From contig NZ_AP025183.1 in the NCBI RefSeq assembly GCF_020885975.1, positions 1,736,001-1,800,000 on the forward strand: a DNA stretch of 64,000 nucleotides, written 5' to 3'. The notes beneath the pieces were generated by a model. The model searched no databases, was not told the DNA's origin, and saw only the letters and a list, made by a program, of their open reading frames with translations. Positions 1,898-64,000 of the stretch are shown here, piece after piece. The stretch is from Flavobacterium ammonificans (GTDB lineage: Bacteria > Bacteroidota > Bacteroidia > Flavobacteriales > Flavobacteriaceae). Both the position numbers and the translations under genes were made by a program. Position 1 is the stretch's first letter. Every line of letters begins with the position of its first letter.

Positions 1898-2593
1898 TTG
1901 ACTAAGAAAATAACAATAGCGATTGACGGATTTTCATCTACTGGAAAAAGTACTTTGGCAAAGCAACTGGCAAAGCACTTAGGTTATATCTATGTAGATA
2001 CAGGAGCAATGTACCGAGCCGTAGCATTTTTTGCTATGCAAAATAATTTAATTTCATCTGATTCTTTTAATAAGGTAGAGTTAGTTAATCGATTAAAAGA
2101 CATATTGTTAGAATTTAAATTTAATTCAGATTTAGGTTTTGCAGAAATGTACTTGAATGGAGACAATGTAGAAAAAGATATTCGTACAATTGAAGTGTCT
2201 GGTTTTGTCAGTAAAGTAGCTGAAGTATCTGAGGTTCGGGCTAAATTAGTGGAACAGCAGAAAGAAATGGGAAAAAACAAAGCGATCGTTATGGATGGTC
2301 GAGATATTGGTACGGTTGTATTTCCAGATGCTGAATTGAAAGTATTTATGACTGCAAGTGCTAGCACTCGTGCACAACGTCGTTATGATGAATTACTGCA
2401 AAAAGGAGATGTAGTCACTTACGAAGAAGTCTTAAAAAACGTCGAAGAACGCGACTACATTGACACACATCGCGAGGATTCGCCATTAGTAATGGCTTCA
2501 GATGCTGTAGAAATCGATAATTCGTATTTAAATAGAGAAGAACAGTTTCAAGCTGTTTTGGATTTAGTAAATAACATAATTAAAGGAGATTAA
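1898..2593 (+). CDS. cmk: Cytidylate kinase
   Basis: Phosphorylates CMP/dCMP to the diphosphate with ATP in the cytoplasm (pyrimidine salvage). The 231-residue length fits the family. Motifs: P-loop GFSSTGKSTLAKQL near residue 10, DTGAMYRAV, the DGRDIGTVVFPDA segment near residue 130, and the lid/CMP region RDYIDTHREDSPL. The start is a TTG at 1898: no ATG or GTG fits, and the conserved strand TKKITIAIDG begins immediately after it. The next gene is a nucleoside symporter, so the two may act together in nucleoside use. Confidence 0.95.
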   Translation: MTKKITIAIDGFSSTGKSTLAKQLAKHLGYIYVDTGAMYRAVAFFAMQNNLISSDSFNKVELVNRLKDILLEFKFNSDLGFAEMYLNGDNVEKDIRTIEVSGFVSKVAEVSEVRAKLVEQQKEMGKNKAIVMDGRDIGTVVFPDAELKVFMTASASTRAQRRYDELLQKGDVVTYEEVLKNVEERDYIDTHREDSPLVMASDAVEIDNSYLNREEQFQAVLDLVNNIIKGD

Positions 2594-2659
2594 TTTTTTG
2601 CGTATTTCTTTTTTAATATTAGATTTACAAACTATTTACCACAAAAACCTATAGTAATT

Positions 2660-3913
2660 ATGAGTATAAAATTTAGATTGATTGTAATGAGTTTTTTGCA
2701 GTTCTTCGTTTGGGGAGCTTGGCTTATCACAGTAGCTAATTATTGGTTTGGAACCAGACAATGGGATGGAGCGCAATTTGGCGCTATCTTTTCAACCATG
2801 GGAATTGCTTCCATTTTTATGCCTACGCTTTGTGGAATTATTGCTGACCGTTGGGTAAATGCCGAAAAATTATATGGTATTTTACATATTCTAGGTGGAT
2901 TAACGTTATTATATGTTCCGCAAGTAACTAATCCAGTTGATTTTTTCTGGGTAATCTTAGTAGCTATGCTTTTTTATATGCCAACAATTGCGCTTTCTAA
3001 TTCAGTTGCTTATAATGCATTAAAAAAAGGAAATTTAAATGTGGTGAAAGATTTTCCACCCATTCGTGTTTGGGGAACAGTCGGTTTTATTGTAGCCATG
3101 TGGATTACCAATTTAACCGGAAATAAAGCAAGTGAAAACCAGTTTTATATTGCTGCTATTGCTGCTATTGGTCTTGGTATTTACTCTTTTACATTGCCAA
3201 AATGTATGCCTGAAGGAAAAACTACTGATAGTAAATCATTTGTTGATTTAATTGGATTAAGTTCTTTTAAATTATTTGCCAATTACAAACTTGCTTTATT
3301 CTTTTTGTTTAGTATGTTTTTAGGAGCAGCTTTGCAACTAACGAATGCTTACGGTGATGTTTATTTGGATGACTTTAAACGTTTACCAGAATATTCAGAT
3401 TCACTAGTAGTAAAATATTCTACTTTAATTATGTCTATTTCGCAAGTTTCGGAAACTTTATTCATTTTAGCTATTCCATTTTTCTTAAAACGATTTGGAA
3501 TTAAACAAGTAATGTTGTTGAGTATGGTAGCATGGGTATTGCGTTTTGGATTGTTTGCTTATGGTAATCCAGGCGATGGTTTGTGGATGATTTTTGTATC
3601 TTGTATTGTATATGGTATGGCATTTGATTTTTTCAATATTTCAGGCTCTCTGTTTGTCGAAACTTCTACAGATTCAACAATTCGTTCTTCGGCACAAGGT
3701 TTATTTATGATGATGACAAATGGATTTGGAGCTATTTTTGGTAGTATTACAAGTGGTTATGTTATTGAGAAATATTTTACGACTTCAGCTGGAAAAGATT
3801 GGCATACAATCTGGCTTAGTTTTGCTATTTATGCTTTAGTGATTACTATTGCTTTTGCTATTTTCTTTAAACACAAACACAATCCGGCTGACATAGAGCA
3901 AGTTGGACATTAA
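2660..3913 (+). CDS. Nucleoside:H+ symporter, NupG/XapB-like MFS permease
   Basis: Predicted inner-membrane importer of nucleosides driven by protons. It has 417 residues and about twelve hydrophobic segments. The N-terminal pattern (RLIVMSFLQFFVWGAWLITV, then FSTMGIASIFMPTLCGIIADRW) is typical of the NupG family, and the motif PPIRVWGTVGFI lies around residue 135. It sits 66 bases after cmk with no clear terminator between, so cotranscription is possible. A terminator follows. The substrate is inferred from family only. Confidence 0.85.
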   Translation: MSIKFRLIVMSFLQFFVWGAWLITVANYWFGTRQWDGAQFGAIFSTMGIASIFMPTLCGIIADRWVNAEKLYGILHILGGLTLLYVPQVTNPVDFFWVILVAMLFYMPTIALSNSVAYNALKKGNLNVVKDFPPIRVWGTVGFIVAMWITNLTGNKASENQFYIAAIAAIGLGIYSFTLPKCMPEGKTTDSKSFVDLIGLSSFKLFANYKLALFFLFSMFLGAALQLTNAYGDVYLDDFKRLPEYSDSLVVKYSTLIMSISQVSETLFILAIPFFLKRFGIKQVMLLSMVAWVLRFGLFAYGNPGDGLWMIFVSCIVYGMAFDFFNISGSLFVETSTDSTIRSSAQGLFMMMTNGFGAIFGSITSGYVIEKYFTTSAGKDWHTIWLSFAIYALVITIAFAIFFKHKHNPADIEQVGH

Positions 3914-3936
3914 ATAGGATTTACAGGATACTATAT

Positions 3937-3963
3937 AAACCAAGATTTATTCTTGGTTTTTTT
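3937..3963 (+). terminator. Terminator after the nucleoside symporter
   Basis: AAACCAAGA and TCTTGGTTT form a 9-bp stem around a short loop, followed by a T run. Confidence 0.75.
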
Positions 3964-4069
3964 ATGCTTATTTACCAAATTAGTAAGGAGGTTTTGATTC
4001 AATTATTAGTTAAATGCTATTTGTTCTGATTGTCAGTGAATTAATGATTTGTTTTCTGTTAAAATAAAT

Positions 4070-4100
4070 TTGATAATTGTATAAAGTTGTATTACCTTTG
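4070..4100 (+). promoter_or_regulatory. rpsA promoter, Bacteroidota type
   Basis: The -7 box TACCTTTG is at 4093-4100 and a TTG is at 4070-4072, with a 20-base spacer. This matches the TTG-N17-23-TAnnTTTG layout of Flavobacterium promoters. Confidence 0.65.
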
Positions 4101-4219
4101 CCCACCTTTAGGTGAATAAGGATTTCCTCTAGGTATCAATTAATTATACAAACAACTTCTGTTGTTTTCTTTCGCTTTCAGAAATCCGAGAAAATGCAGA
4201 ATACAAATTTTTAATCAGC

Positions 4220-5998
4220 ATGTCTGAACAATTAAAATCACAAGAAGAGTTTTTAGCAAATTTTAACTGGCATAACTTCCAAGAAGGAATTGATGCAGTA
4301 GATGAGAAAAACTTACAAGAATTCGAAGCACTAGTTTCAAAAACTTTCATCGCTACAGATCAAGAAGAAGTAGTAGAAGGTGTAGTTGTTAGAATTACAG
4401 ATAGAGACGTTATCGTTGATATCAATGCAAAATCGGAAGGTGTTATTTCTTTAAACGAATTCCGTTACAATCCAAACTTAAAAGTAGGTGACAAAGTAGA
4501 AGTATTAATTGACATCCGTGAGGATAAAACAGGTCAATTAGTATTATCACATAGAAAAGCACGTACTATCAAATCTTGGGATAGAGTTATTTCTGCAAAC
4601 GAAACAGGTGAAATCGTTACTGGTTTTGTTAAATGTAGAACTAAAGGAGGTATGATCGTTGACGTTTTCGGAATCGAAGCTTTCTTACCAGGTTCACAAA
4701 TTGATGTGAAACCAATCCGTGATTATGATGTTTACGTGAACAAAAACATGGAATTCAAAGTAGTTAAAATTAACCACGAATTCAAAAATGTTGTTGTATC
4801 TCACAAAGCGCTTATCGAAGCTGATATTGAGGTTCAGAAAAAAGAAATTATTGGTCAATTACAAAAAGGACAAGTATTAGAAGGTGTTGTTAAAAACATT
4901 ACTTCTTATGGTGTGTTTATTGACTTAGGTGGTGTTGATGGATTAATCCACATCACTGACCTTTCTTGGTCAAGAATTAATCACCCAAGTGAAGTTCTTG
5001 AATTAGATCAAAAATTAAATGTTGTAATCCTTGATTTCGATGATGAGAAAACAAGAATTCAATTAGGATTGAAACAATTAAACGCTCACCCATGGGATGC
5101 TTTAGATGCTAACTTAGCTGTTGGAGATAAAGTTAAAGGTAAAGTAGTTGTAATCGCTGATTACGGTGCATTTATCGAAGTTGCTGAAGGTGTTGAAGGT
5201 TTAATCCACGTTTCTGAAATGTCTTGGTCAACTCACTTACGTTCTGCTCAAGATTTCGTAAAAGTGGGTGATATCGTTGAAGGAGTTATCTTAACTTTAG
5301 ATAGAGACGATCGTAAGATGTCTTTAGGTATCAAACAATTGACACAAGATCCATGGACTGACATTACTTCTAAATACCCAGTAGGTTCTAAACATTCTGG
5401 TACAGTTAGAAACTTTACAAACTTTGGTATTTTCGTAGAATTAGAAGAAGGAATCGACGGATTGATTTATATCTCTGACCTTTCTTGGACTAAGAAAATC
5501 AAACATCCATCTGAATTTGTAAATGTTGGTGAAAAATTAGACGTAGTTGTATTAGAATTAGATGTTGAAGGACGTAAATTATCTTTAGGTCATAAACAAA
5601 CTACTGCTAATCCTTGGGATCAATACGAAGATTCATTCGCTGTTGGAACTATCCACAATGGAGCGATTGCTGAGATCGTAGACAAAGGAGCTACTGTAGA
5701 ATTTGGTGATGATATCGTTGCTTTCATTCCTACTCGTCACTTAGAAAAAGAAGACGGTAAGAAATTGAAAAAAGGAGAAACTGCTGATTTCAAAGTAATT
5801 GAGTTCAATAAAGAATTCAAAAGAGTAGTTGCTTCTCATACTGCTATCTTCCGTGAAGAAGAAGAGAAAAATGTGAGAACAGTTTCTGAAAATACTTCAT
5901 CTGCATCAACTAACAATGCACCTGCTGCAACTTTAGGAGATAACAATGATGTATTAGCTGCTTTAAAAGCTAAAATGGAAAAAACAGAGAAAAAATAA
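4220..5998 (+). CDS. rpsA: 30S ribosomal protein S1
   Basis: Binds mRNA at the 30S platform and helps translation start, which matters in a lineage with few Shine-Dalgarno sites. The 592-residue protein carries six S1 (OB-fold) repeats beginning near residues 50, 135, 220, 305, 392 and 478. Repeats 3 to 5 are the most canonical (for example YGVFIDLGGVDGLIH and FGIFVELEEGIDGLIY). The last repeat is divergent, and the tail is rich in Ala, Ser and Lys. Codon use is strongly biased toward a few codons, as in highly expressed genes. The ATG at 4220 comes just before the acidic N-terminus typical of S1, and no Shine-Dalgarno is visible. Confidence 0.96.
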   Translation: MSEQLKSQEEFLANFNWHNFQEGIDAVDEKNLQEFEALVSKTFIATDQEEVVEGVVVRITDRDVIVDINAKSEGVISLNEFRYNPNLKVGDKVEVLIDIREDKTGQLVLSHRKARTIKSWDRVISANETGEIVTGFVKCRTKGGMIVDVFGIEAFLPGSQIDVKPIRDYDVYVNKNMEFKVVKINHEFKNVVVSHKALIEADIEVQKKEIIGQLQKGQVLEGVVKNITSYGVFIDLGGVDGLIHITDLSWSRINHPSEVLELDQKLNVVILDFDDEKTRIQLGLKQLNAHPWDALDANLAVGDKVKGKVVVIADYGAFIEVAEGVEGLIHVSEMSWSTHLRSAQDFVKVGDIVEGVILTLDRDDRKMSLGIKQLTQDPWTDITSKYPVGSKHSGTVRNFTNFGIFVELEEGIDGLIYISDLSWTKKIKHPSEFVNVGEKLDVVVLELDVEGRKLSLGHKQTTANPWDQYEDSFAVGTIHNGAIAEIVDKGATVEFGDDIVAFIPTRHLEKEDGKKLKKGETADFKVIEFNKEFKRVVASHTAIFREEEEKNVRTVSENTSSASTNNAPAATLGDNNDVLAALKAKMEKTEKK

Positions 5999-53125: not shown

Positions 53126-55219
53126 TTATTTTTCGTACTTCTTTTTCTTCAATAAATCGGAAGCTGTTTGATAATATGAAATTGTTTCTCTGACTAAATC
53201 GGTTCTTTCTTTATTCAAAACCTCTTGATCATAATAGAGTTGAAATTCAGGAGCCATTTTCTGGTCGTGTTTCAAACTCAATTGGAATTGTTTAACTTTT
53301 TGTTTTGGCGAAATGATTGTTAATACATCATCTTTTATTAAACCTAAATCTTGGTAAGTAGCAATTAATGCTCTGGGTTTATAATCAGATTGAAGTACGT
53401 CTTGTCCGTAAAATTTACTTTGATAATTAAAATTCAACAATCCCATTAAGGTAGGCATTACATCAATTTGCGACATCAATTGTATGTATTTTTGCGGTGC
53501 AATAAATCCAGGACTATATATTAATGCAGGAATTCTGTATTTTTCTAAAGGAAGTTCAGTTTTTCCAGCACTAGATGCACAGTGGTCAGCGACAATAACA
53601 AAAACGGTATTCTTAAACCAAGATTGTTTTTTAGCCAGTGTAAAAAACTGTTTTAATGCATAGTCCGTATATTTTACTCCACCATCTCTGGACTTAGCGT
53701 CACCTGGTATATCAATTTTATTATTAGGATAGGTAAAGGGTCTGTGATTACTCACCGTCATCCAATGATTAAAGAAGGGTTTACCTGATTCTGATTCAGT
53801 ATTCATTATTTGAATGGCTTTATTAGCCATATCCTCATCACAAACACCCCAAACATTAGAAAAAGTAATTTCGTGCAGACTCAAAGTTTTATTATCTACT
53901 ATATCATAACCATTACCTGTAAAGAAATCTTCCATATTATCAAAGAAAGCATCACCACCATACAGGTATTTTACATTATAACCTTTTTGCTTAAAGATAT
54001 TTCCAGTAGAAAATTTATTTTTATTGTCTTTTCGTTTCACTACACTTTCTCCGGCTGTAGGAGGAAAACACAGTGTAACAGCTTCAAGTCCTCGAACGGT
54101 TCTGTTCCCAACAGCATACAAATTAGTAAATTGTAAACTTTCTAAAGCTAGCTTGTCTAAGAAAGGAGTAATATTATTTTCATTTCCATACGCTTTCATA
54201 AAATCAGCACTGAAGCTTTCAATAGTAATTAAGACAACATTTTTATGAATTTCTTGTCCTTTTCCAATAATTTTTCTAGTTGTTGATTCATTTTTAATTC
54301 CATTGATTTGATTTTTCAAAATAGCATATGCTTCATTACTTGGAATCGTTTTATAAAATTTAAAATAATCCAATTCACTATTAAGGAAAGCTAAATAAAA
54401 CTTATAAATCCCATTAGATTGTAACTCATTAGCAAAAATATTCTGAGAGTTTTCTTTTGTTGCTAAATATGGAATTGTGGCCAATGAAAGGCCTAACATA
54501 ACAAAATACAATCCTGAAATTTTTAATTTTTCAGAAAAGGTAGGGATAGCTTCTATGTAGGTTTTAGAATATTTTACTATAAAATAAGTGATTATTCCTG
54601 AAGATATAAATAGTACTGTAAATAGAGGAATTACCGGATACGATTCCATAATATTCCCAATCACTTCGTTTGTATATACTAAATAATTTACAGCGATGAA
54701 ATTGTATTTTACGCCAAATTCATTCCAAAAGAAAAATTCACTAATAGCATTTTGAAGTATTAAAGTGACAAAAAGAAAAATCACAAAGGAAAACAACCAA
54801 AAACGAATGGTGTTTCTGTATTTTGGAAGGAATAATAATAGACCAAAAAGTAGTGTTTTAAGTCCGATAAAAGCCATTCCTATTTCAGGTAAAGCACCAC
54901 CATATTCGTTTAAAATAGTATTTCCAAAAGCAATATATAAGAACAAACAAACAAGCAATCCAAAAATAATATAACCTGTTGGTTTGAGGTATTTTGAATT
55001 CGATATAAAAATCAAGTACAACCATAGTAGACTGCTTAAGACTGTAAAAACTAAAAAGTCAGATAGAATTCCGAATGTAAATATTTTGATTATATCAAAA
55101 CCAGAAAATGAAGCCTGTGTTATGGGATGGAATAATAATACTATTCTTAAGATGAGGCTTACTAGTATGTAGAATAAAGTTAAAGAATAAAAAGGAGAAA
55201 GTTTTTTAACGAGTGGCAT
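53126..55219 (-). CDS. LTA-synthase-family phosphotransferase (sulfatase fold)
   Basis: A 697-residue membrane enzyme with five hydrophobic helices (residues about 10-230) and a periplasmic alkaline-phosphatase-superfamily domain. Metal and catalytic segments: VVLITIESFSADFMKAYGNE, the Thr in GNRTVRGLEAV, NHWMTVSNHRPF and VFVIVADHCASS. Family members move phosphoglycerol or phosphoethanolamine-type groups onto envelope glycans. In a Gram-negative it probably decorates a surface glycan or lipid. Its promoter faces the CTTAAG repeats upstream. Confidence 0.9.
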   Translation of the reverse strand: MPLVKKLSPFYSLTLFYILVSLILRIVLLFHPITQASFSGFDIIKIFTFGILSDFLVFTVLSSLLWLYLIFISNSKYLKPTGYIIFGLLVCLFLYIAFGNTILNEYGGALPEIGMAFIGLKTLLFGLLLFLPKYRNTIRFWLFSFVIFLFVTLILQNAISEFFFWNEFGVKYNFIAVNYLVYTNEVIGNIMESYPVIPLFTVLFISSGIITYFIVKYSKTYIEAIPTFSEKLKISGLYFVMLGLSLATIPYLATKENSQNIFANELQSNGIYKFYLAFLNSELDYFKFYKTIPSNEAYAILKNQINGIKNESTTRKIIGKGQEIHKNVVLITIESFSADFMKAYGNENNITPFLDKLALESLQFTNLYAVGNRTVRGLEAVTLCFPPTAGESVVKRKDNKNKFSTGNIFKQKGYNVKYLYGGDAFFDNMEDFFTGNGYDIVDNKTLSLHEITFSNVWGVCDEDMANKAIQIMNTESESGKPFFNHWMTVSNHRPFTYPNNKIDIPGDAKSRDGGVKYTDYALKQFFTLAKKQSWFKNTVFVIVADHCASSAGKTELPLEKYRIPALIYSPGFIAPQKYIQLMSQIDVMPTLMGLLNFNYQSKFYGQDVLQSDYKPRALIATYQDLGLIKDDVLTIISPKQKVKQFQLSLKHDQKMAPEFQLYYDQEVLNKERTDLVRETISYYQTASDLLKKKKYEK

Positions 55220-55259: not shown

Positions 55260-55287
55260 CTTAATTTAAACTTAAGAATAGCTTAAG
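55260..55287. promoter_or_regulatory. Operator A: three CTTAAG-type half-sites at 11-bp spacing
   Basis: CTTAAT (55260-55265), CTTAAG (55271-55276) and CTTAAG (55282-55287) are each separated by 5 bases. Direct repeats one helical turn apart are the usual target of OmpR-family regulators. It lies 21 bases upstream of the -7 box of the minus-strand phosphotransferase gene. Confidence 0.55.
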
Positions 55288-55318
55288 ATTTCACTGACTA
55301 TTAAGTTGTTAGGATTAA

Positions 55319-55335
55319 CTTAAGTTTAGCTTAAG
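55319..55335. promoter_or_regulatory. Operator B: CTTAAG-N5-CTTAAG before the redox cluster
   Basis: CTTAAG at 55319-55324 and 55330-55335, again one helical turn apart, with the same TAG before the second half-site as operator A. It lies 37 bases before the -7 box of the thioredoxin-fold gene, a normal activator position. Confidence 0.6.
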
Positions 55336-55372
55336 AAATCTCTATTGCAAAATATTCTCGCTAAATCTGTGT

Positions 55373-55380
55373 TATTTTTG
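55373..55380 (+). promoter_or_regulatory. -7 box of the redox cluster
   Basis: Exact TATTTTTG, 26 bases before the ATG at 55407. The nearest TTG is 25 bases upstream, a poor -33, consistent with dependence on an activator. Confidence 0.5.
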
Positions 55381-55406
55381 TATTACTATAATTTAAAACT
55401 TCATCG

Positions 55407-55841
55407 ATGAAAAAAATCCTCTTACTTTCCCTTTTATTATTTTTCAAAATAAGTTTTTCACAAAATTGGAAAAGTTCTTTTGAGGAAGCGAAATCTCAAG
55501 CATTAGCTGAAAACAAAAATATAGTTTTGGTTTTTTCAGGATCTGATTGGTGCGCTCCTTGTATCAAATTAGATAAAGCCGTTTGGCAATCTGAAGAGTT
55601 TAAAAAGGAGGCCGAAACAAATTGGGTAATTTACAAAGCTGATTTTCCAAAGAAAAAAGCAAACCAATTAAGTCCAGCATTAACTGCTGCTAATAAACTG
55701 TTGGCAGAAAAATACAATACTTCAGGAAATTTTCCTTTGGTGCTTTTACTCGATAAAAACGGAGTCGTTTTAGGGATTGAAGGGTATAAAAATTATGCTG
55801 CAGCTGACTATATTCAACTCATTCATTCCTTCGAAAAATGA
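55407..55841 (+). CDS. Exported thioredoxin-fold protein
   Basis: A 144-residue periplasmic thiol-disulfide protein. It has a signal peptide (residues 1-19, ending SFSQ), then the thioredoxin active site SGSDWCAPCIKLDKAVW (Cys49 and Cys52) and the cis-Pro region NFPLVLLLDKNG. It is DsbD-gamma or thioredoxin_7-like. It is the first gene of the cluster, and its stop overlaps the apbE start by 4 bases (ATGA), so the two are translationally coupled. It may keep cysteines of the DUF4266 lipoprotein reduced; this is inference. Confidence 0.9.
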   Translation: MKKILLLSLLLFFKISFSQNWKSSFEEAKSQALAENKNIVLVFSGSDWCAPCIKLDKAVWQSEEFKKEAETNWVIYKADFPKKKANQLSPALTAANKLLAEKYNTSGNFPLVLLLDKNGVVLGIEGYKNYAAADYIQLIHSFEK

Positions 55842-56824
55842 TAAAAAACACCACTTCACTTATAGTATTAATGATCTGTTTTGTTTCATTTGGACAAACA
55901 GAATACAAACGTAAAGTATCTATGTTGGGTAGTCCGTTTGAGATTACCGTTGTAGCCAAAGACTCAATAGAAGGGAAGCAGTTTACAGATTTAGCAATCA
56001 CAGAGGTTAAACGTATAGAAAATTTAATTTCTGATTGGATTCCAACAACCCAAATTTCATTAGTTAATAAAAATGCTGGGGTTCAATCCATAAAAGTAGA
56101 TTCCGAAGTATTTGAATTAGTTGAAAGAGCCATAAAAATTTCACAATTAACTGATGGTGCTTTTGACATTTCGTATGCCTCAATGGATAAAATATGGAAA
56201 TTCGATGGTAGTATGAAAGAAATGCCTTCAGAAGAGGCAATAAAAAAATCAGTGTCGAAAATTGGTTTTAAGAACATTCTTTTAAATAAGCAAGATCAAA
56301 CTATTTTCTTAAAAAACGAAGGAATGAAATTAGGACTTGGTGGGATAGGCCAAGGCTATATTGCTGATAAAGTTAAAGATAAGTTACTCTCTAACGGTTG
56401 TAAGTCTGGAATAGTTAATGTTTCTGGCGATATCAATGCGTGGGGGAAACAAAGCAATCAAAAACCCTGGACAGTTGGAATTGTAAACCCAATGAATAAG
56501 AATAAAGTATTTGCCACTTTCCCTTTAGAGAATAGTTCTGTAGAAACCTCAGGGAATTATGAGAAGTATGTCCTATTTAATGGGATACGATATTCTCATA
56601 TTATTGATCCAAGAACTGGATATCCAGCTAGAGGAATAGTAAGTGTATCGGTTTTTTCTAAACAAACTGAAATCGCTGATGCTTTAGCAACCGGAATTTT
56701 TGTTTTGGGGGTAGAAGTAGGTTTGGATCTAGTAAACCAATTAAAAGGGATTGAATGTATTATTGTTGATGATAAAGGCAAAATTCATTCTTCCAAAGGA
56801 ATTGACATTAAAAAATATAAATAA
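55838..56824 (+). CDS. apbE: FAD:protein FMN transferase ApbE
   Basis: Periplasmic Mg-dependent enzyme that attaches FMN from FAD to Thr/Ser of target proteins. The 328-residue protein has a signal peptide (residues 1-20, ending VSFGQ). Family motifs: MLGSPFEITVVA near residue 30, LGLGGIGQGYIADKV near residue 170, VNVSGDINAWG, YSHIIDPRTGYPARG near residue 255, and ADALATGIFVLG with the metal-ligand Asp. No protein with a full FMN-binding domain (DGxSGAT) is encoded nearby; possible partial motifs are in the DUF3570 protein two genes downstream. Confidence 0.94.
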   Translation: MIKNTTSLIVLMICFVSFGQTEYKRKVSMLGSPFEITVVAKDSIEGKQFTDLAITEVKRIENLISDWIPTTQISLVNKNAGVQSIKVDSEVFELVERAIKISQLTDGAFDISYASMDKIWKFDGSMKEMPSEEAIKKSVSKIGFKNILLNKQDQTIFLKNEGMKLGLGGIGQGYIADKVKDKLLSNGCKSGIVNVSGDINAWGKQSNQKPWTVGIVNPMNKNKVFATFPLENSSVETSGNYEKYVLFNGIRYSHIIDPRTGYPARGIVSVSVFSKQTEIADALATGIFVLGVEVGLDLVNQLKGIECIIVDDKGKIHSSKGIDIKKYK

Positions 56825-56830
56825 ACAATC

Positions 56831-57043
56831 ATGTTAAAAAAAATCTGTTTAACCCTCTTAGTACTGTTTGCGTTACAGTCATGTACTGTTGTTAAAGAAT
56901 ATGAAAAAGAAAAAATCAATGATATTGATATGAAAATAGCTGCGCGAACGTCGGAGCGATATGAAACTACGTTTCAGGTATATCGAGAAGCTGCTGCTGG
57001 AGCAAATGGTGGGAAATCTGGTGGTGGTTGTGGCTGTAATTAA
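56831..57043 (+). CDS. DUF4266 lipoprotein ending GGGCGCN
   Basis: A 70-residue lipoprotein with a signal peptide and lipobox FALQSC (Cys18). The middle is charged (KEYEKEKINDIDMKIAARTS), and the C-terminus ends in a glycine-rich tail with two cysteines, GGKSGGGCGCN. The tail matches what I know of DUF4266, which is usually found with DUF3570. The C-terminal CGC could bind a metal, form a disulfide with the thioredoxin-fold partner, or be modified. Function is not established. It is 6 bases after apbE and 19 before the DUF3570 gene. Confidence 0.88.
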   Translation: MLKKICLTLLVLFALQSCTVVKEYEKEKINDIDMKIAARTSERYETTFQVYREAAAGANGGKSGGGCGCN

Positions 57044-57062
57044 TGATTTCAATAAATTGAAA

Positions 57063-58526
57063 ATGAAAAAATATTTAATATATAGTATATTGTTCCTATC
57101 GGTAACAACATTTGCTCAAACCCAAACCGCAACTCCTACATTCAAAAAAAGAGTTTTGGAAAGTACAGAAGTTGATTTTTTGGCAAGCTATTATGTTCAA
57201 GATGGTTCAAGATCAGCGGTTTCAGGCGGAATTGGTTCTGAGAAGTTAACCGACATTGCTTCAAATATCACTATTGCTATGCCACTCAATGATGATGACG
57301 TACTAACCGTAGATGTCGGAATTTCAGCCTATTCTTCAGCCTCCTCTAGTAATATTAATCCGTTTAATTCTTCTGGGGCATCAGGTGGAAACGGAGATGA
57401 TGATGATGATGACGATTATAGAAATGGTTATGCTAATACAGGTGTTAGTCCACAGCCCTACGGAAGTCCTTGGCAAGCCTCATCAGGCGCTTCAAGAAGT
57501 GATCAACTAGTTTCAGTAATGGCCAATTACAGTCACAGCAGTGATTCAAGAAATTTTATATGGAATGCCGATGTTTCTTTCTCTAATGAGTATGATTATA
57601 CCTCTGTCGGATTTGGTGGTGGAGTTGCCGCTCTTTTTAATGAAAAAAACACTGAAATTAGTGTAAAGGCTAATGCCTATTTAGACCAATGGCGACCTAT
57701 TTACCCAACAGAGCTTCATGAATACTCCAAATACGGAACTAATTTATTATCACAAGGCTATTTTAATGGAGTAACTGTTTATAACGAAAATGGCGTGGCA
57801 GCTACTGAAAATTATTTACCAAGTAATTTTAAAGATTTGGCTTTAACCAATAGAAACTCTTATTCGGCCTCTTTTGGCTTTTCTCAAATAGTAACTAAAC
57901 GTCTTCAGCTTTCATTGTTTTTTGATGTTTTACATCAGCAAGGATTATTATCGACTCCCTATCATCGGGTTTATTTTGCTGACAAGTCTAACTTTTACAT
58001 TGGTCAATCTCAGTTTATTTCTAGCTATGAAAACAATGCCAATACTGGAGTATTTAAATTAGCAGATGACATTGAGCGATTGCCAAATAACCGATTCAAA
58101 TTACCTGTTGGCGCACGTTTGAATTATTACATTAATGAGTATTTTATTTTAAGAACCTATTACAGGTATTATTCTGACGATTGGAATATTCACGCGCATA
58201 CTGCAAGTATAGAGTTGCCTATCAAACTTTCAGATAGATTTACTGTGTTTCCAACCTTTAGATACTATACTCAAACAGAGTCAAAATTTTATGCGCCTTA
58301 CGAAAAACATCTTTCTTCGGAACAATTTTATACTTCTGATCCAGATTTAGCTACCTTTGATACCAAGCAAATAGGTTTTGGAATCAATTACACAGATATT
58401 TTTGCCACATCAAAAATTTGGCAATTTGGACTCAAAAATATTGATTTTAGGTTTCATCAATATGATCGTTCTGACCGACTTAAGGCTAGTATAGCTACAA
58501 TTGCTTTTAAATTTATAATGCAATAA
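57063..58526 (+). CDS. DUF3570 outer-membrane beta-barrel protein
   Basis: A 487-residue exported protein. I start at the ATG at 57063, which opens a signal peptide ending TTFAQ (residue 19); a longer frame from 56961 would overlap the DUF4266 gene in another frame. Alternating aromatic strands and the final FKFIMQ (terminal aromatic-type strand) indicate an outer-membrane barrel. The DUF3570 mark YYRYYSDDWNIHAHTASIEL is near residue 360. Residues 112-118 are seven Asp in a row. Two SSGAS motifs (residues 103-107 and 140-144) flank this acidic loop. Confidence 0.88.
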   Translation: MKKYLIYSILFLSVTTFAQTQTATPTFKKRVLESTEVDFLASYYVQDGSRSAVSGGIGSEKLTDIASNITIAMPLNDDDVLTVDVGISAYSSASSSNINPFNSSGASGGNGDDDDDDDYRNGYANTGVSPQPYGSPWQASSGASRSDQLVSVMANYSHSSDSRNFIWNADVSFSNEYDYTSVGFGGGVAALFNEKNTEISVKANAYLDQWRPIYPTELHEYSKYGTNLLSQGYFNGVTVYNENGVAATENYLPSNFKDLALTNRNSYSASFGFSQIVTKRLQLSLFFDVLHQQGLLSTPYHRVYFADKSNFYIGQSQFISSYENNANTGVFKLADDIERLPNNRFKLPVGARLNYYINEYFILRTYYRYYSDDWNIHAHTASIELPIKLSDRFTVFPTFRYYTQTESKFYAPYEKHLSSEQFYTSDPDLATFDTKQIGFGINYTDIFATSKIWQFGLKNIDFRFHQYDRSDRLKASIATIAFKFIMQ

Positions 58527-58544
58527 ATAGAGTATAAAAGAAAC

Positions 58545-59207
58545 ATGAGAATTTTAATTGTTGAGGACGAAATTGGAATTGTTCAATTCTTACAACAAGG
58601 GTTGGAAGAAGAAGGATATACTGTTACAACAGCTTCCGATGGTGAACAAGGACTTCAACTTCTTTTAAAAGAAAAATTTGATTTAGTATTGCTAGATTGG
58701 ATGCTACCAAAAATGACAGGTATAGAAGTATGTAAGTCATTTAGACAACACAATACAACTACAGCAGTTATTTTTTTAACAGCTAAAGACACCATTCAAG
58801 AAACAATAGAAGGCCTAAGAGTTGGTGCGAATGACTATATCAAAAAACCGTTTAGCTTTGATGAATTGTTAGAGCGAATGAAAGTTCATTTTCGTACTTT
58901 AGAAAAAGTGGAGACTCTTCATTTAGGGCCAGTTGAAATTAATCTAAGTCAACATCTTGTGTTAGTTAATAAGAAAGAAGTAAGTTTAACTAATCGAGAG
59001 TATGATTTACTACATTACTTAGTTAAAAATAAAGGAAAAGTATGCACACGAACTCAAATAATTGAAGATGTTTGGGATATTCATTTTGATTATGACACAG
59101 GAGTAATTGATGTGTTTATGAATTCCATTCGAAAAAAAATTAACTTTAAAAAAGAAGAAGACTACATCAAAACCATTCGTGGTGTGGGGTATATTGCAAA
59201 CGATTAA
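58545..59207 (+). CDS. OmpR-family response regulator
   Basis: DNA-binding response regulator of 220 residues. The receiver domain has phospho-acceptor Asp51 (LVLLDWMLPKMTG), the acidic pair in IVEDE and Lys in YIKKPFSFDE. The winged-helix domain (residues about 125-220) ends TIRGVGYIAND, with TNREYDLLHYLVKNKGKV. It resembles CusR/CzcR-type metal regulators and is followed 2 bases later by its kinase. The CTTAAG repeats are its likely targets. Confidence 0.93.
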   Translation: MRILIVEDEIGIVQFLQQGLEEEGYTVTTASDGEQGLQLLLKEKFDLVLLDWMLPKMTGIEVCKSFRQHNTTTAVIFLTAKDTIQETIEGLRVGANDYIKKPFSFDELLERMKVHFRTLEKVETLHLGPVEINLSQHLVLVNKKEVSLTNREYDLLHYLVKNKGKVCTRTQIIEDVWDIHFDYDTGVIDVFMNSIRKKINFKKEEDYIKTIRGVGYIAND

Positions 59208-59209
59208 CT

Positions 59210-60598
59210 ATGATGCAACTTTCCTTTAAAAATAAAATTGCCTCCCTTTACATAGTAACAACTGCACTATTAATTGCTTTTGTTTTTTGTGTTATTTATA
59301 TCAGCGTAAGCTATACAATGTACAGTGATATCAATGAAGATATTGAATCAGAATCTCAAAAACATCTGACAGAAATTGATGTAAGTAATAATAGTTTTCG
59401 TCTCATCCATCTTGAAGAATGGATGGAAAGAGAACATAATACAGAGGATGTTAATCCTGTCTACGTACAATTTATCGACAATAAAAAGAATGTTGTTGAA
59501 AAATCTCCTAACCTCAAAAGAAATCTTCAATTTAATTCTGAAATTCCATTCAATACACTCTTTGATTATCAATTGGATGGAAAAGCTGTACGCCAAATAC
59601 AATTACCAATTTATGAGGGAAAATTGATTATTGGTTACCTATTGGTAGCCATGTCTTTGGAAAATACCTATTTAGTTCAAAATAATTTATTAGAAGTATT
59701 GACAATTGCCTATCCAACAATTTTAGGAATTCTATTTCTAATTGCGCGTTTGATTGCTGGACGAAGTATAAAGCCAATTAATGCTATAATCAATACTGCT
59801 AATGAAATTACAAAAGATAATTTAAAATCCCGAATTCCTTTGCCGAGAACCAAAGATGAATTATTCATTCTATCCCAAACTATTAATGATTTATTAGATC
59901 GTTTAGAAACAGCTATAGAACGAGAAAAACAATTTACTTCAGATGCTTCGCATGAGTTAAGAACACCCTTAACGGTAATAAAAGGTACTTTAGAAGTTTT
60001 AATTAGGAAACCAAGAGCTACCAAAGAATATGAAGAAAAGATTAATTTTTGCGTTGCAGAAGTAGATCGATTAAATCATCTAGTAGATCAATTACTATTA
60101 CTTGCGCGTTACGAAAATGAAAAGCAGACATTCAAGAATGAGAAAGTATATTTAAATGGTATCATTCAAGATATTTTAGTTCGAAAGGCATCTTTACTTA
60201 AGTTAAAAGATATTAAAATTCATCTAAAAATGGAAGAGGACTATTATTGTGAATCAGACCAGCAATTTGTTACAATAATTATCACCAATTTAATTTCTAA
60301 TGCAATCAAATATTCTAACCAAAGTGATGCCATAGAAATTCATTTAAATCAAAGAAAACAAGAAATAATTTGTTCTATTATTGATAATGGAATTGGAATA
60401 CCCCCAGCTGATTTAGAGAAAGTATTTCAACCTTTCTTCCGGTCAAAAGCATTAAATCACCCAACAATTAAAGGAATAGGCGTGGGATTATCCATAGTGC
60501 AACGATTATGTTCTCTTCTGTCCATTGGTATTAATTTAACGAGTGTTGAAAATGCGGGAACCAAAGTTGAATTAGTTTTTCAAGAATCGTCTAATTAA
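59210..60598 (+). CDS. Sensor histidine kinase
   Basis: A 462-residue inner-membrane kinase. Two membrane helices (residues about 12-34 and 162-184) bracket a periplasmic sensor of about 125 residues. It continues with HAMP, HisKA with His248 (FTSDASHELRTPL), and HATPase with N-box NLISNAIKYS, DNGIGIPPADLEKVF and GIGVGLSIVQRL. The tandem ATG (59210 and 59213) leaves the exact start open by one codon. No obvious metal-binding His/Met cluster is seen in the sensor, so its signal is unknown. Confidence 0.93.
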   Translation: MMQLSFKNKIASLYIVTTALLIAFVFCVIYISVSYTMYSDINEDIESESQKHLTEIDVSNNSFRLIHLEEWMEREHNTEDVNPVYVQFIDNKKNVVEKSPNLKRNLQFNSEIPFNTLFDYQLDGKAVRQIQLPIYEGKLIIGYLLVAMSLENTYLVQNNLLEVLTIAYPTILGILFLIARLIAGRSIKPINAIINTANEITKDNLKSRIPLPRTKDELFILSQTINDLLDRLETAIEREKQFTSDASHELRTPLTVIKGTLEVLIRKPRATKEYEEKINFCVAEVDRLNHLVDQLLLLARYENEKQTFKNEKVYLNGIIQDILVRKASLLKLKDIKIHLKMEEDYYCESDQQFVTIIITNLISNAIKYSNQSDAIEIHLNQRKQEIICSIIDNGIGIPPADLEKVFQPFFRSKALNHPTIKGIGVGLSIVQRLCSLLSIGINLTSVENAGTKVELVFQESSN

Positions 60599-60610
60599 TC
60601 CTTCATCAGC

Positions 60611-60627
60611 ATTAAGTAATTCTTAAG
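60611..60627. promoter_or_regulatory. Operator C: ATTAAG-N5-CTTAAG before the metal pump gene
   Basis: ATTAAG (60611-60616) and CTTAAG (60622-60627) at the same 11-bp spacing as operators A and B. The right half continues ATTT, as it does in operator A. It lies 21 bases upstream of the -7 box TACTTTTG. Confidence 0.55.
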
Positions 60628-60648
60628 ATTTAGCTTATATTTATGACT

Positions 60649-60656
60649 TACTTTTG
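60649..60656 (+). promoter_or_regulatory. -7 box of the metal pump gene
   Basis: Exact TACTTTTG, 23 bases before the ATG at 60680. No TTG at -33; operator C occupies that zone, as expected for an activated promoter. Confidence 0.5.
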
Positions 60657-60679
60657 AAGTACATAAATAGTATTCAATT

Positions 60680-63600
60680 ATGCTCGAAAAAATTATAGCA
60701 TTTAGTTTAAAAAACAAACTGATTATTCTACTCTTTACATTAGGAGTTTTTAGTTTTGGAATTTATTCTGTTTTCCAAATTTCGATTGGTGCAGTTCCTG
60801 ATGTAACTAATAATCAAGTGCAAGTAATTACTACTTCTAGAAATCTTTCTACACAAGATATTGAACAGTTTATTACCTATCCAGTTGAAATCGAAATGGC
60901 TAATTTACCTGGCGTAAAAGAAATTAGGTCTATTTCTAAGTTTGGATTATCAGTGGTTACTATTGTTTTTGAAGATGATTTAGGAACCTATTTACCACGA
61001 CAACTAATTGCTGAAAAAATTAAATCAGCTTCCGAAAAAATCCCTGCCGGTTTCGGCACCCCTGAAATGGGGCCAATAACCACTGGCTTAGGAGAAATTT
61101 ACCAATATACTCTTGAAGTTAAACCCGAATTTAAAGATAATTATTCTGTTACCGATTTACGAACTATTCAAGATTGGATAGTTAAACGACAATTGTCTGG
61201 AATCAAAGGTGTAGTAGAAATCAATACTTGGGGTGGTTTTTTAAAACAATATGAAATCGCCATAATTCCAGAACGTTTAAAAGCTATTAATATAAGCATG
61301 ACAGATGTTTTTGTGGCTTTGGAAAAAAACAATAGTATCGCTGGTGGAGCCTATATCGAAAAAGTAAATCAAAGTTATTTCATTCGAGCTGAAGGAAAAG
61401 TAAATTCACTTGAGGATATTGAAAATATTGTAGTTAAAAATACCAATGGTATTCCAGTTTACATTAAAAATATTGCTGAAGTTAATTTTGGACATGCAAA
61501 TCGTTTCGGCGCTATCACAGGGAATGGTGAGGGTGAAAAGGTATTAGGACAAGTAATGATGTTAAAAGGTGGAAACTCTAAGCAGGTTATTACTGATGTC
61601 AAAAATCGGGTGGCTGAAATTCAAAAGACATTACCGGAAGGTGTTTATATCAATGGTTTCTTGGAACGAAGCGAATTGGTGGGTAAAACTACTTTCACAG
61701 TGGCAGAAAATTTAATTCTAGGTTGTTTAATTGTAATTTTTGTAGTGGTGCTGTTATTGGGAAATTGGCGTTCGGGATTGGTAGTTGCATCTGTAATTCC
61801 ATTATGCTTATTATTTGCTATTTCGTTCATGAATATTTTTGGAATTGATGCCAATTTGATGAGTTTAGGCGCTATAGATTTCGGAATCATTATTGATGGA
61901 GCGGTAATTATTGTAGAATTTATTGCATTCAAAATAGCTAGTAAATCGTCAAGTTTAGTTGGACTATCAAAAGAAAACCAACAACTAGAAATTGACCAAA
62001 TCACTTTTAAAAGTGCCTCTAAAATGATGAACTCAGCTGTTTTTGGACAGTTAATTATTTTGATCGTTTTTATACCTATTTTGTCTTTATCAGGAATTGA
62101 AGGTAAAATGTTCAAGCCTATGGCAATGACATTTAGCTTCGCTTTATTAGGTGCAATGCTTTTATGTATCACGTATGTTCCTGTAGTGGCATCGATTTTT
62201 TTAAAGCCTAAAGAAGAAAATCCAAATTCGTTTTCTCATCAATTGATTCATAAATTCAATTCGATATATTTACCTATTATTACTTGGTCTTTGAGTAATA
62301 CTAAAAAAGTACTGTTGGGCGCTGTAGGACTTTTGTTATTTTCTATTGTAATTTTCACTAGAATGGGTGGCGAATTTATTCCGACACTAGACGAAGGCGA
62401 TTTCGTAATTCAGCCTGTTTTAAAAACGGGAACTTCATTGACAAAAACTATTGCTACTACTACAAAGATTGAACAAATTATTTTGAAAAATTTCCCTGAA
62501 GTTAATCAAGTGGTGAGTAGGATTGGTGCTGCCGAAGTACCAACAGATCCAATGTCAATGGAAGAAAGCGATATTATTGTCAAATTAAAACCAAAATCAG
62601 AATGGGTTTCTGCCGAATCCAAAGATGAGTTAGCTGACAAAATCAAAACTGCAATTGAAACTCAAATTCCGAATATGGAAATTGAATTTACACAACCTAT
62701 CGAAATGCGATTTAACGAATTGATTTCTGGAACACGTTCTGACGTAGCTGTGAAGTTATTCGGTGAAGATTTGAATATTTTGGCTAGTAAAGCTCATGAA
62801 ATTCAAAATGCAATTAAAAATGTGGAAGGTGCTTCGGATATTATTATTGAAAAAACCGAAGGATTACCACAAATGTTAGTACAATATGATCGCTCAAAAA
62901 TAGCTCGCTACGGATTAAATATTGCCGACTTAAACGATATGATAGCGCTTAGTTTTGCTGGTAAAACAGTCGGAAATGTATTTGAAGGCGAAAAACGATT
63001 TGACATGGTGGTTCGTTTAGATAAGATAAACCGTAAGGATATTGAAGACTTACAATATTTATACATTTCAACTCCAAACGGACAACAAATTCCGTTAAAT
63101 GAATTAGCTACAATTGAGTATTCTCAAGGTCCTGCAAAAATTTCAAGAGACAATACCAATAGAAGAATTGTTGTTGGTATTAATGTAAGAAATAGAGATT
63201 TACAAAGTGTAGTTACTGATATTCAAAATATAGTTAGTTCAAAGATACAGCTACCTGCAGGTTATTATATAAAATATGGAGGGCAATTTGAAAACTTAGA
63301 ATCTGCAAAAAACAGATTGCTAATTGCTGTTCCTATAGCTTTATTCTTAATTTTTATTCTATTGTATTTTGCTTTCGGTTCTATCAAAGAGGCGTTGATG
63401 GTGTATTCAGCAATTCCACTTTCTGCTGTAGGTGGTATTTTATTTCTATGGCTGCGTGGATTGCCGTTTAGTATTTCAGCAGGAGTTGGTTTTATTGCTC
63501 TTTTTGGAATTGCAGTGTTAAATGGAATTGTTTTAATTGAGCATTTTAAAGAACTTAAGCACAGCGGAATGAAAGATATGGATCAATTAATACTAAAAGG

Positions 63601-64000
63601 TACTACAGATCGTTTAAGACCTGTTTTGTTGACTGCCGCCGCTGCAGCTTTAGGATTTTTGCCAATGGCAATTTCAACCTCTGCCGGTGCTGAAGTACAA
63701 AGACCTTTGGCCACTGTCGTTATTGGAGGCCTAGTAACTGCAACACTTTTAACCTTAATTGTACTACCTATACTTTTCAAAGTTTTAGATAAAAAAGATT
63801 TTACGAAGCCGCAATTTAAAGTGAATAACAAAGCAATCATTCTGTTCTTTTTATTGAGTTGTTCATTTCTAAGTGCTCAAAATACAAGCGCCGAACGAGA
63901 ACGAATTATCAATTTAGCAATGGATAATAATAAAGAAATTAAAGCGGCTCAATTGCAACTTGATAAAGCAAAAGCTGCTATTCAATCTGCCTATTCATTT
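60680..64000 (+). CDS. CzcA-type heavy-metal RND pump fused to a TolC-like domain (3' end cut)
   Basis: Inner-membrane metal exporter driven by protons. The frame is open from the ATG at 60680 to the window edge (1107 codons, no stop). The RND part spans residues 1-1045. TM4 has DFGIIIDGAVIIVE with Asp400 and Asp406, the divalent-cation (CzcA-like) motif rather than the copper/silver CusA type. After the last RND helix the frame continues through a signal-like hydrophobic stretch (NKAIILFFLLSCSFLSAQ, residues about 1049-1067) into ERIINLAMDNNKEIKAAQLQLDKAK, the start of an OEP/TolC repeat. Pump and outer-membrane factor are therefore one polypeptide. Confidence 0.88.
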   Translation, partial: MLEKIIAFSLKNKLIILLFTLGVFSFGIYSVFQISIGAVPDVTNNQVQVITTSRNLSTQDIEQFITYPVEIEMANLPGVKEIRSISKFGLSVVTIVFEDDLGTYLPRQLIAEKIKSASEKIPAGFGTPEMGPITTGLGEIYQYTLEVKPEFKDNYSVTDLRTIQDWIVKRQLSGIKGVVEINTWGGFLKQYEIAIIPERLKAINISMTDVFVALEKNNSIAGGAYIEKVNQSYFIRAEGKVNSLEDIENIVVKNTNGIPVYIKNIAEVNFGHANRFGAITGNGEGEKVLGQVMMLKGGNSKQVITDVKNRVAEIQKTLPEGVYINGFLERSELVGKTTFTVAENLILGCLIVIFVVVLLLGNWRSGLVVASVIPLCLLFAISFMNIFGIDANLMSLGAIDFGIIIDGAVIIVEFIAFKIASKSSSLVGLSKENQQLEIDQITFKSASKMMNSAVFGQLIILIVFIPILSLSGIEGKMFKPMAMTFSFALLGAMLLCITYVPVVASIFLKPKEENPNSFSHQLIHKFNSIYLPIITWSLSNTKKVLLGAVGLLLFSIVIFTRMGGEFIPTLDEGDFVIQPVLKTGTSLTKTIATTTKIEQIILKNFPEVNQVVSRIGAAEVPTDPMSMEESDIIVKLKPKSEWVSAESKDELADKIKTAIETQIPNMEIEFTQPIEMRFNELISGTRSDVAVKLFGEDLNILASKAHEIQNAIKNVEGASDIIIEKTEGLPQMLVQYDRSKIARYGLNIADLNDMIALSFAGKTVGNVFEGEKRFDMVVRLDKINRKDIEDLQYLYISTPNGQQIPLNELATIEYSQGPAKISRDNTNRRIVVGINVRNRDLQSVVTDIQNIVSSKIQLPAGYYIKYGGQFENLESAKNRLLIAVPIALFLIFILLYFAFGSIKEALMVYSAIPLSAVGGILFLWLRGLPFSISAGVGFIALFGIAVLNGIVLIEHFKELKHSGMKDMDQLILKGTTDRLRPVLLTAAAAALGFLPMAISTSAGAEVQRPLATVVIGGLVTATLLTLIVLPILFKVLDKKDFTKPQFKVNNKAIILFFLLSCSFLSAQNTSAERERIINLAMDNNKEIKAAQLQLDKAKAAIQSAYSF

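Follow-up and report, generated by a model that had tools for sequence, protein, structure and literature searches.

What brings an enzyme that attaches flavin to proteins into one tight row of genes with a thioredoxin, an outer-membrane protein, a two-component system and a heavy-metal pump? The question is raised by a cluster near the end of a 64,000-nucleotide stretch (the window; positions 1736001-1800000 of contig NZ_AP025183.1) in the genome of Flavobacterium ammonificans, which measures 2.27 Mb, is 99.8% complete and forms a single contig. Our answer is that the flavin module and the heavy-metal pump seem to be switched on jointly by one sensor, and that the cluster probably serves to bring electrons from thiols to flavins carried by an outer-membrane pore. 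Taken together, these parts make up a metal-responsive regulon with two arms, export by the pump and a thiol-to-flavin relay in the envelope, a reading to which we give about an even chance of being right.

All seven genes, from the thioredoxin through czcA, lie on the plus strand. They encode an exported thioredoxin-fold protein with a CAPC site (55407..55841; Pfam Thioredoxin_7, 3.6e-13); the flavin mononucleotide (FMN) transferase ApbE, present in the genome only here (55838..56824; Pfam ApbE, 1.8e-81); a DUF4266 lipoprotein ending in GGGCGCN (56831..57043; Pfam, 3.7e-18); a DUF3570 protein, predicted to be an outer-membrane barrel, with its likely start at ATG 57063 (57063..58526; Pfam, 4.8e-39, and a structure model); an OmpR-type response regulator (RR; 58545..59207; Pfam, NCBIfam); a sensor histidine kinase (HK; 59210..60598; Pfam, NCBIfam) with HLEEWMEREHN in its periplasmic part; and a CzcA-type pump fused to a CzcC-type (OEP) domain (60680..64000, open at the window end; TIGR00914, above cut-off). 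The first two genes overlap by 4 bases, the next gaps measure 6, 19, 18 and 2 bases, and 81 bases separate the HK gene from czcA, which bears out the original prediction of seven same-strand genes with the first six tightly packed. Its end at czcA was set too early: the operon extends ~3.8 kb beyond the window, where the fused CzcC domain is followed by genes for CzcB, VIT1 and DUF2231 (positions 2022-4780 of the adjoining stretch, L003; Pfam).

Joint control is suggested by a promoter element that recurs in the cluster. Upstream of the thioredoxin gene, an array of three CTTAAG-like half-sites (CTTAAT, CTTAAG, CTTAAG) with an 11-base period (55260..55287, plus strand) is a candidate RR box; it contains an exact CTTAAG-N5-CTTAAG (55271-55287, plus strand), and a second exact box, kept in relatives having the RR gene, follows at 55319..55335 (plus strand). 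These are the only two exact copies in the genome, and at no more than one mismatch the genome holds six sites, four of them in the cluster. One such box lies before czcA (ATTAAG-N5-CTTAAG; 60611..60627, plus strand). The sequence TAnnTTTG, which we take to be the Bacteroidota -7 element, occurs 21 bases past this box (60649..60656, plus strand) and, as a possible -7 element, before the thioredoxin gene (55373..55380, plus strand). A one-mismatch site at genome position 1930690 was discarded as it lies inside a coding gene. An intergenic near-match at genome positions 55475-55491 (position 1501 of stretch L006), 158 bases before an RNase HII-like gene, is either a further RR site or a chance occurrence.

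The box was then scored in relatives from two sets of loci, whose counts are uncorrected for kinship. Set A holds 100 loci chosen from phylum and family surveys only for holding DUF3570, plus our own (n = 101); from the same genus, 12 of the 19 other DUF3570 genomes were taken and the remaining 7 left out. Set B consists of the best 80 of at least 590 DUF3570 matches listed, and some genomes are common to both sets. Of the 181 loci, 170 were usable, 166 after removal of identical promoters. With a threshold of at least 10 of 12 matching positions, a box stands upstream of the thioredoxin gene in 35 of the 43 loci with an RR gene downstream vs 9 of the 123 without one (Fisher 6e-20), a comparison in which near copies remain and our own locus, the source of the box, is among the 43; shuffled sequences gave a rate of ~2%. 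Among the nine box-positive loci, two (L142, L211) have RR-HK upstream of the thioredoxin gene and one (L185) has its RR past the distance limit; among the eight misses, four (L131, L137, L184, L192) have the box upstream of a Rieske gene that precedes the thioredoxin gene. Behind the HK gene, the box is found in 35 of 45 rows, and in 30 of these 35 its end lies exactly 21 bases from TAnnTTTG.

A simpler account would have pump, kinase and flavin module as mere neighbours, with the RR controlling the pump alone. Most DUF3570 clusters do lack RR, HK and CzcA, and the linked order is mostly confined to one genus; however, the same box stands in front of both operons, and the flavin operon mostly keeps it where the pump is gone. 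In all eight loci in which the gene after the kinase is DUF2231 or VIT1, the box score behind the HK gene is 9 or less, although the windows scored there are also shorter (63-197 bases), which counts against our reading. Five of the eight (L178, L185, L194, L197, L210) nevertheless keep the box before the thioredoxin gene; in L192 it stands before the Rieske gene, in L181 it scores 9/12, and L195 was left out of the test. Loss of the pump thus mostly leaves the RR box of the flavin operon in place, so that the relay is more than an accessory to the pump. We regard simple adjacency as highly improbable.

A motif, E-W-x-E-R-E-H-N, is common to the HK orthologues in their periplasmic part, and REH occurs in 33 of 35 HK rows with a pump vs 4 of 12 without, the latter including three (L175, L183, L188) in which the contig or locus ends too early to judge. 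When the motif (REH or KEH) was set against the pump-side box in 42 HK rows, both were present in 32, neither in 7, the motif only in 3 and the box only in none (Fisher 4e-6), so that all seven kinases without the Glu-His motif have also lost the pump-side box. One locus, L198, has kept its pump and lost both. In a tree of 42 of the 45 kinases (near copies L130, L135 and L139 dropped), the losses are confined to two parts, one with L178/L181/L185 and one with L192/L194/L198 and L210, some of the branches separating the two groups being weakly supported and the count of changes excluding 32 ungrouped rows. This joint loss ties the sensor motif to control of the pump, and the residues of the motif suggest that metal is held by its Glu and His. 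The earlier proposal that the module and pump have a two-component system of their own is probable, given the common box and best NCBIfam matches to heavy-metal subfamilies, albeit below their cut-offs. Two further observations concern genes near the kinase: in three Flavobacterium loci (L188, L189, L191) RR and HK are separated by a 294-residue open reading frame, and in 11 Flavobacterium-type loci inspected (e.g., L182 11578-11955 and L214 13097-13495) a small, His-bearing, exported-looking protein (~125-140 residues; ..IEHY..EHQDLPFKT..SIWLPPK) is encoded between HK and czcA.

The pump itself scores 1181.5 bits against the TIGR00914 cut-off of 701.45, has OEP and HlyD-type (adaptor) domains in its system, and has no near equivalent elsewhere in the genome, its second-best match being 25% identical. 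Heavy-metal efflux by resistance-nodulation-division pumps such as CzcCBA and CusCBA is classically under two-component control by CzcRS or CopRS. The cluster resembles these systems in its pump above the family cut-off, adaptor, outer-membrane domain and adjoining OmpR-type RR and HK, from which export is predicted; unlike them, it has CzcA and CzcC in one protein, an RR and HK below the subfamily cut-offs, and a regulon that includes a flavin module. Pumps also accompany the core elsewhere: in other genera (L077, L081, L082, L095, L104, L105, L109, L156) CzcA-CzcB genes lie upstream of the thioredoxin gene on the same strand, sometimes accompanied by VIT1, DUF2231, an HD protein and a Crp-type regulator. 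In family genomes outside the genus (55 of the 76 DUF3570-positive family genomes, neighbours tallied by eye), CzcA lies within 11 kb of the core in 7 of 55 (expected 0.41, from 67 copies) and VIT1 in 4 of 55 (expected 0.11, from 18 copies), a pump 19 kb off in G403 and a VIT1 23 kb off in G424 being uncounted.

How far does the arrangement reach? DUF3570 is present in 118 of 395 genomes across the phylum and 76 of 199 across the family, and the core is conserved well outside this strain rather than absent there. Counting genes anywhere in the stretch, set A holds DUF4266 in 100 loci, ApbE in 98, the thioredoxin in 93, RR in 23, HK in 18, CzcA in 18, CzcC and CzcB in 20 each, VIT1 in 13 and DUF2231 in 6; the corresponding numbers in set B are 78, 79, 76, 44, 42, 29, 26, 24, 5 and 14. 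Co-occurrence of the core with DUF3570 is far above chance, and the order thioredoxin-ApbE-DUF4266-DUF3570 is almost fixed, the exceptions (L162, L165-L169) having ApbE after DUF3570. RR-HK directly behind DUF3570 is narrower: it is found in Flavobacterium (8 of the 12 same-genus genomes in set A) and a small number of contigs that are misnamed or whose names go no further than family or order. Collection strains with the cluster include F. xanthum DSM 3661 (L173), F. micromati DSM 17659 (L180) and F. gelidilacus DSM 15343 (L196). The expected neighbourhood is thus widespread for ApbE, thioredoxin and DUF4266, less so for RR-HK-CzcA, and metal as a general role of the core is rejected, as CzcA occurs in just 18 of 101 loci. 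A Rieske-like small lipoprotein is encoded in 19 set A loci, directly upstream of the thioredoxin gene in 17 of them, and in 2 set B loci; our own cluster has none. Blocks of neighbouring genes in other genera (RF-1/OMP decarboxylase/AIRS; Fe-S/MlaD/amidase; sigma factor/FecR) were set aside as chromosomal context on their Pfam content. By DUF3570, the closest named relatives among the matches listed are a metagenome-assembled genome (MAG) named Crocinitomicaceae (81%) and Flavobacterium species. Two contigs with Flavobacterium-type clusters, L175 (titled Klebsiella pneumoniae MAG) and L186 (Chryseobacterium gleum MAG), are probably misnamed bins. Four distant members (L162, L165, L166, L167) encode, between DUF3570 and ApbE, a signal-bearing protein ending in C-x-H-K-x-C, which presumably resembles the NusG domain II proteins of Rnf clusters.

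The four-gene core is already known, so the original prediction of an undescribed system, with DUF4266 and DUF3570 lacking any assigned role, does not hold. Passages of Méheust et al. (2021; eLife, PMC8238504), the sole source on DUF3570 or DUF4266 in the open literature searched, describe clusters in which ApbE and DUF3570 occur with DUF4266 and a PF13899 thioredoxin, some including DsbD and some not, propose DsbD as the electron source, report that a DUF3570 of Chlorobium luteolum is flavinylated at two [S/T]GA[S/T] sites, and term the function uncertain. Our cluster is like the "DsbD systems" of those passages in its ApbE, DUF3570 motifs, PF13899 thioredoxin, DUF4266 terminal CxC and VIT1 (there an occasional member), and like 316 of the clusters there in missing an adjacent DsbD; it is unlike them in its RR-HK with common boxes, its CzcABC pump and its predicted outer-membrane barrel with an outward loop. 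The terms Rieske, barrel and CzcA are absent from its main text, where two-component systems and the outer membrane come up only in connection with other systems. A 2024 paper that shares authors with it (PMC11334425) models other flavinylated domains, with no match for thioredoxin or DsbD in the portion covered. The open literature searched contained nothing joining ApbE with CzcA and two-component control, or an FMN transferase with efflux and thioredoxin in Flavobacterium, and nothing on a surface-exposed flavinylated outer-membrane protein in connection with ferric iron. Relative to these passages and searches, what looks new is the regulon, the covariation seen in the sensor, the Rieske gene as a neighbour and the flavin loop predicted to face outward.

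Where would the flavin go? ApbE has a signal-like N-terminal stretch, as read off its translation, and the genome holds one ApbE, one DUF3570 and one, unlinked, DsbD. A search for four substrate families including DUF3570 found no FMN_bind, NqrB/RnfD or DUF2271 in the genome; with a single ApbE and the other families absent, DUF3570 is its sole possible substrate among those sought, and service to Na+-NQR or RNF was rejected for want of NqrB/RnfD and FMN_bind. That a flavin is placed on an envelope protein is supported, the Chlorobium DUF3570 being the only one for which PMC8238504 shows it, and predicted for our own protein, which has the sites SSAS 91, SGAS 104 and SGAS 141, hence two [S/T]GA[S/T] motifs, and seven Asp at 112-118. 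In its model (63-row alignment; mean pLDDT 84.9, pTM 0.80) we count 16 strands, the connections being short turns at one side and long loops at the other; the model matches FadL, OmpG and other barrels (best Z 21.8) at low TM-scores of 0.27-0.40 of the query. Both alignments (33 and 63 rows) show no variation at Y90, S92, A93, S94 and S144, residues that flank the loop 93-146, inside which lie SGAS 104-107 and the seven Asp, at low model confidence; both end sites match relaxed patterns in 91 of 101 and 76 of 80 loci. From the model, DUF3570 is predicted to form a barrel in the outer membrane, with one long loop enclosed between its flavin motifs, and counting strands from a periplasmic N-terminus places this loop probably outside the cell.

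Electrons for the flavin would come from thiols. The best NCBIfam match of the thioredoxin is DsbH, below cut-off, and DUF4266 ends in CxC in 100 of 100 relatives, on a Gly-rich, almost invariant tail, which supports the earlier idea that cysteines of the lipoprotein take part in redox. Some flavin disulfide reductases have flexible tails with cysteines, of which this one is reminiscent. An SGAN/AGAN stretch in DUF4266 was dropped as a flavin site since its last residue is not Ser or Thr. In the scheme we favour, the HK would sense a periplasmic divalent metal, probably by way of the Glu/His cluster W-x-E-R-E-H-N, and the RR would activate two promoters through the CTTAAG-N5-CTTAAG boxes. In one arm, CzcABC would export the metal; in the other, DsbD, encoded elsewhere, would reduce the exported thioredoxin, which would reduce the CxC tail of DUF4266, which in turn would hand electrons to FMN attached by ApbE to the barrel loop of DUF3570. 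The flavins would then give electrons to an acceptor on the cell surface or beyond it, e.g., an oxidised metal. Alternatively, a toxic metal might bind or oxidise the DUF4266 tail, with thioredoxin restoring it and the DUF3570 flavin acting as terminal oxidant or sensor, so that no electrons exit the cell. Such thiol protection would fit the invariant CxC tail and the control common to pump and flavin module, but it leaves unexplained both the placing of the flavin sites where the outer-membrane barrel has its long loops and the Rieske protein beside the thioredoxin in 19 of 101 loci, and we judge it quite improbable.

A bolder version of the two-armed scheme, which we offer tentatively and think rather more likely wrong than right, makes DUF3570 an electron conduit of the outer membrane that works without haem: an outward loop would carry two or three covalent flavins, fed through the barrel by the thioredoxin-reduced CxC tail of DUF4266, and in Flavobacterium metal excess would induce this conduit together with the Czc pump. 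The seven Asp beside the flavins of our protein may hold metal. In MtrCAB-type porin-cytochrome conduits, a barrel likewise carries electrons across the outer membrane, a likeness that would apply if our reading is right. MtrB (6r2q_B) is among the structural matches to the DUF3570 model (Z 15.7, rmsd 8.5, 298 aligned), tied with many porins. Unlike MtrCAB, the cluster has no CxxCH in its 11 translated stretches, and thus no multihaem cytochrome there; predicted covalent FMN and thiols would stand in place of haems.

Several further points weigh against the regulon with two arms. When up to two mismatches are allowed, the genome has more matches to the reversed control pattern than to the box (287 vs 52), so only near-exact sites are informative. 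A constant distance from the thioredoxin-promoter box to TAnnTTTG had to be rejected, since it is 37/38 bases in 7 of 37 cases and different in 3, the element being absent in 27. The best NCBIfam matches of RR (TIGR01387, 212.3 bits) and HK (TIGR01386, 197.9 bits) fall short of the cut-offs of 279.2 and 292.55, most DUF3570 clusters have no pump, and no DsbD stands beside the cluster, the single copy lying at genome position 1620600, ~170 kb off. As to the flavin sites, our own first site has Ser replacing Gly; 20 of 101 DUF3570 proteins lack [S/T]GA[S/T], those inspected mostly with Ser for Gly; and an acidic run of at least four occurs in just 19 of 101 and 38 of 80. Parts of PMC12052999 give the flavinylation motif as D-x-x-[S/T]-G-A-[S/T], whose leading Asp is found in only 6 of 181 DUF3570 proteins, although its loss had a minor effect in one enzyme in that source; an Asp three residues past the motif is usual instead (158 of at least 236 motifs). 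The missing motifs and rare leading Asp make flavinylation of our DUF3570 uncertain; the rarity of that Asp, the first site lacking Gly and the common control pattern slightly lower our confidence in the reading as a whole.

Iron offers another interpretation, assimilatory ferric reduction, in which the relay would reduce Fe(III) at the envelope for uptake of Fe(II), with VIT1 and the pump handling surplus Fe(II). It agrees with VIT1 near the core in 13 of 101 loci, with the enrichment of VIT1 there in family genomes outside the genus, with the acidic loop adjoining the flavin motifs of our DUF3570, and with passages of PMC8238504 that count 25 clusters with VIT1 and suggest ferric reduction for them. 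Most loci, however, lack VIT1, and the Flavobacterium control resembles metal-excess systems and includes an efflux pump; we consider this interpretation unlikely. Our own VIT1 (L003 3145-4266) has 373 residues, with the VIT1 domain from 154 and ~150 extra N-terminal residues, the frames of many relatives having 232-256. The DUF2231 membrane protein behind it (L003 4292-4780) and 19 relatives have conserved His (HLHMVVNHFPI, HEHEE, GGEIRH), from which DUF2231 could bind haem and join the electron path. On the other side of the cluster lies a divergent gene for a sulfatase-family membrane protein (53126-55219, minus strand), with relatives at the same place in several Flavobacterium loci.

For the biology of these bacteria, a conduit of this kind would mean that metal is exported and surface metal changed in redox state at the same time. 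Should the flavins point out of the cell, electrons from thiols would have a route across the outer membrane in bacteria that lack multihaem cytochromes. With a named regulator, its binding sites and a partner pump at hand in Flavobacterium collection strains, the function of the system becomes directly testable.

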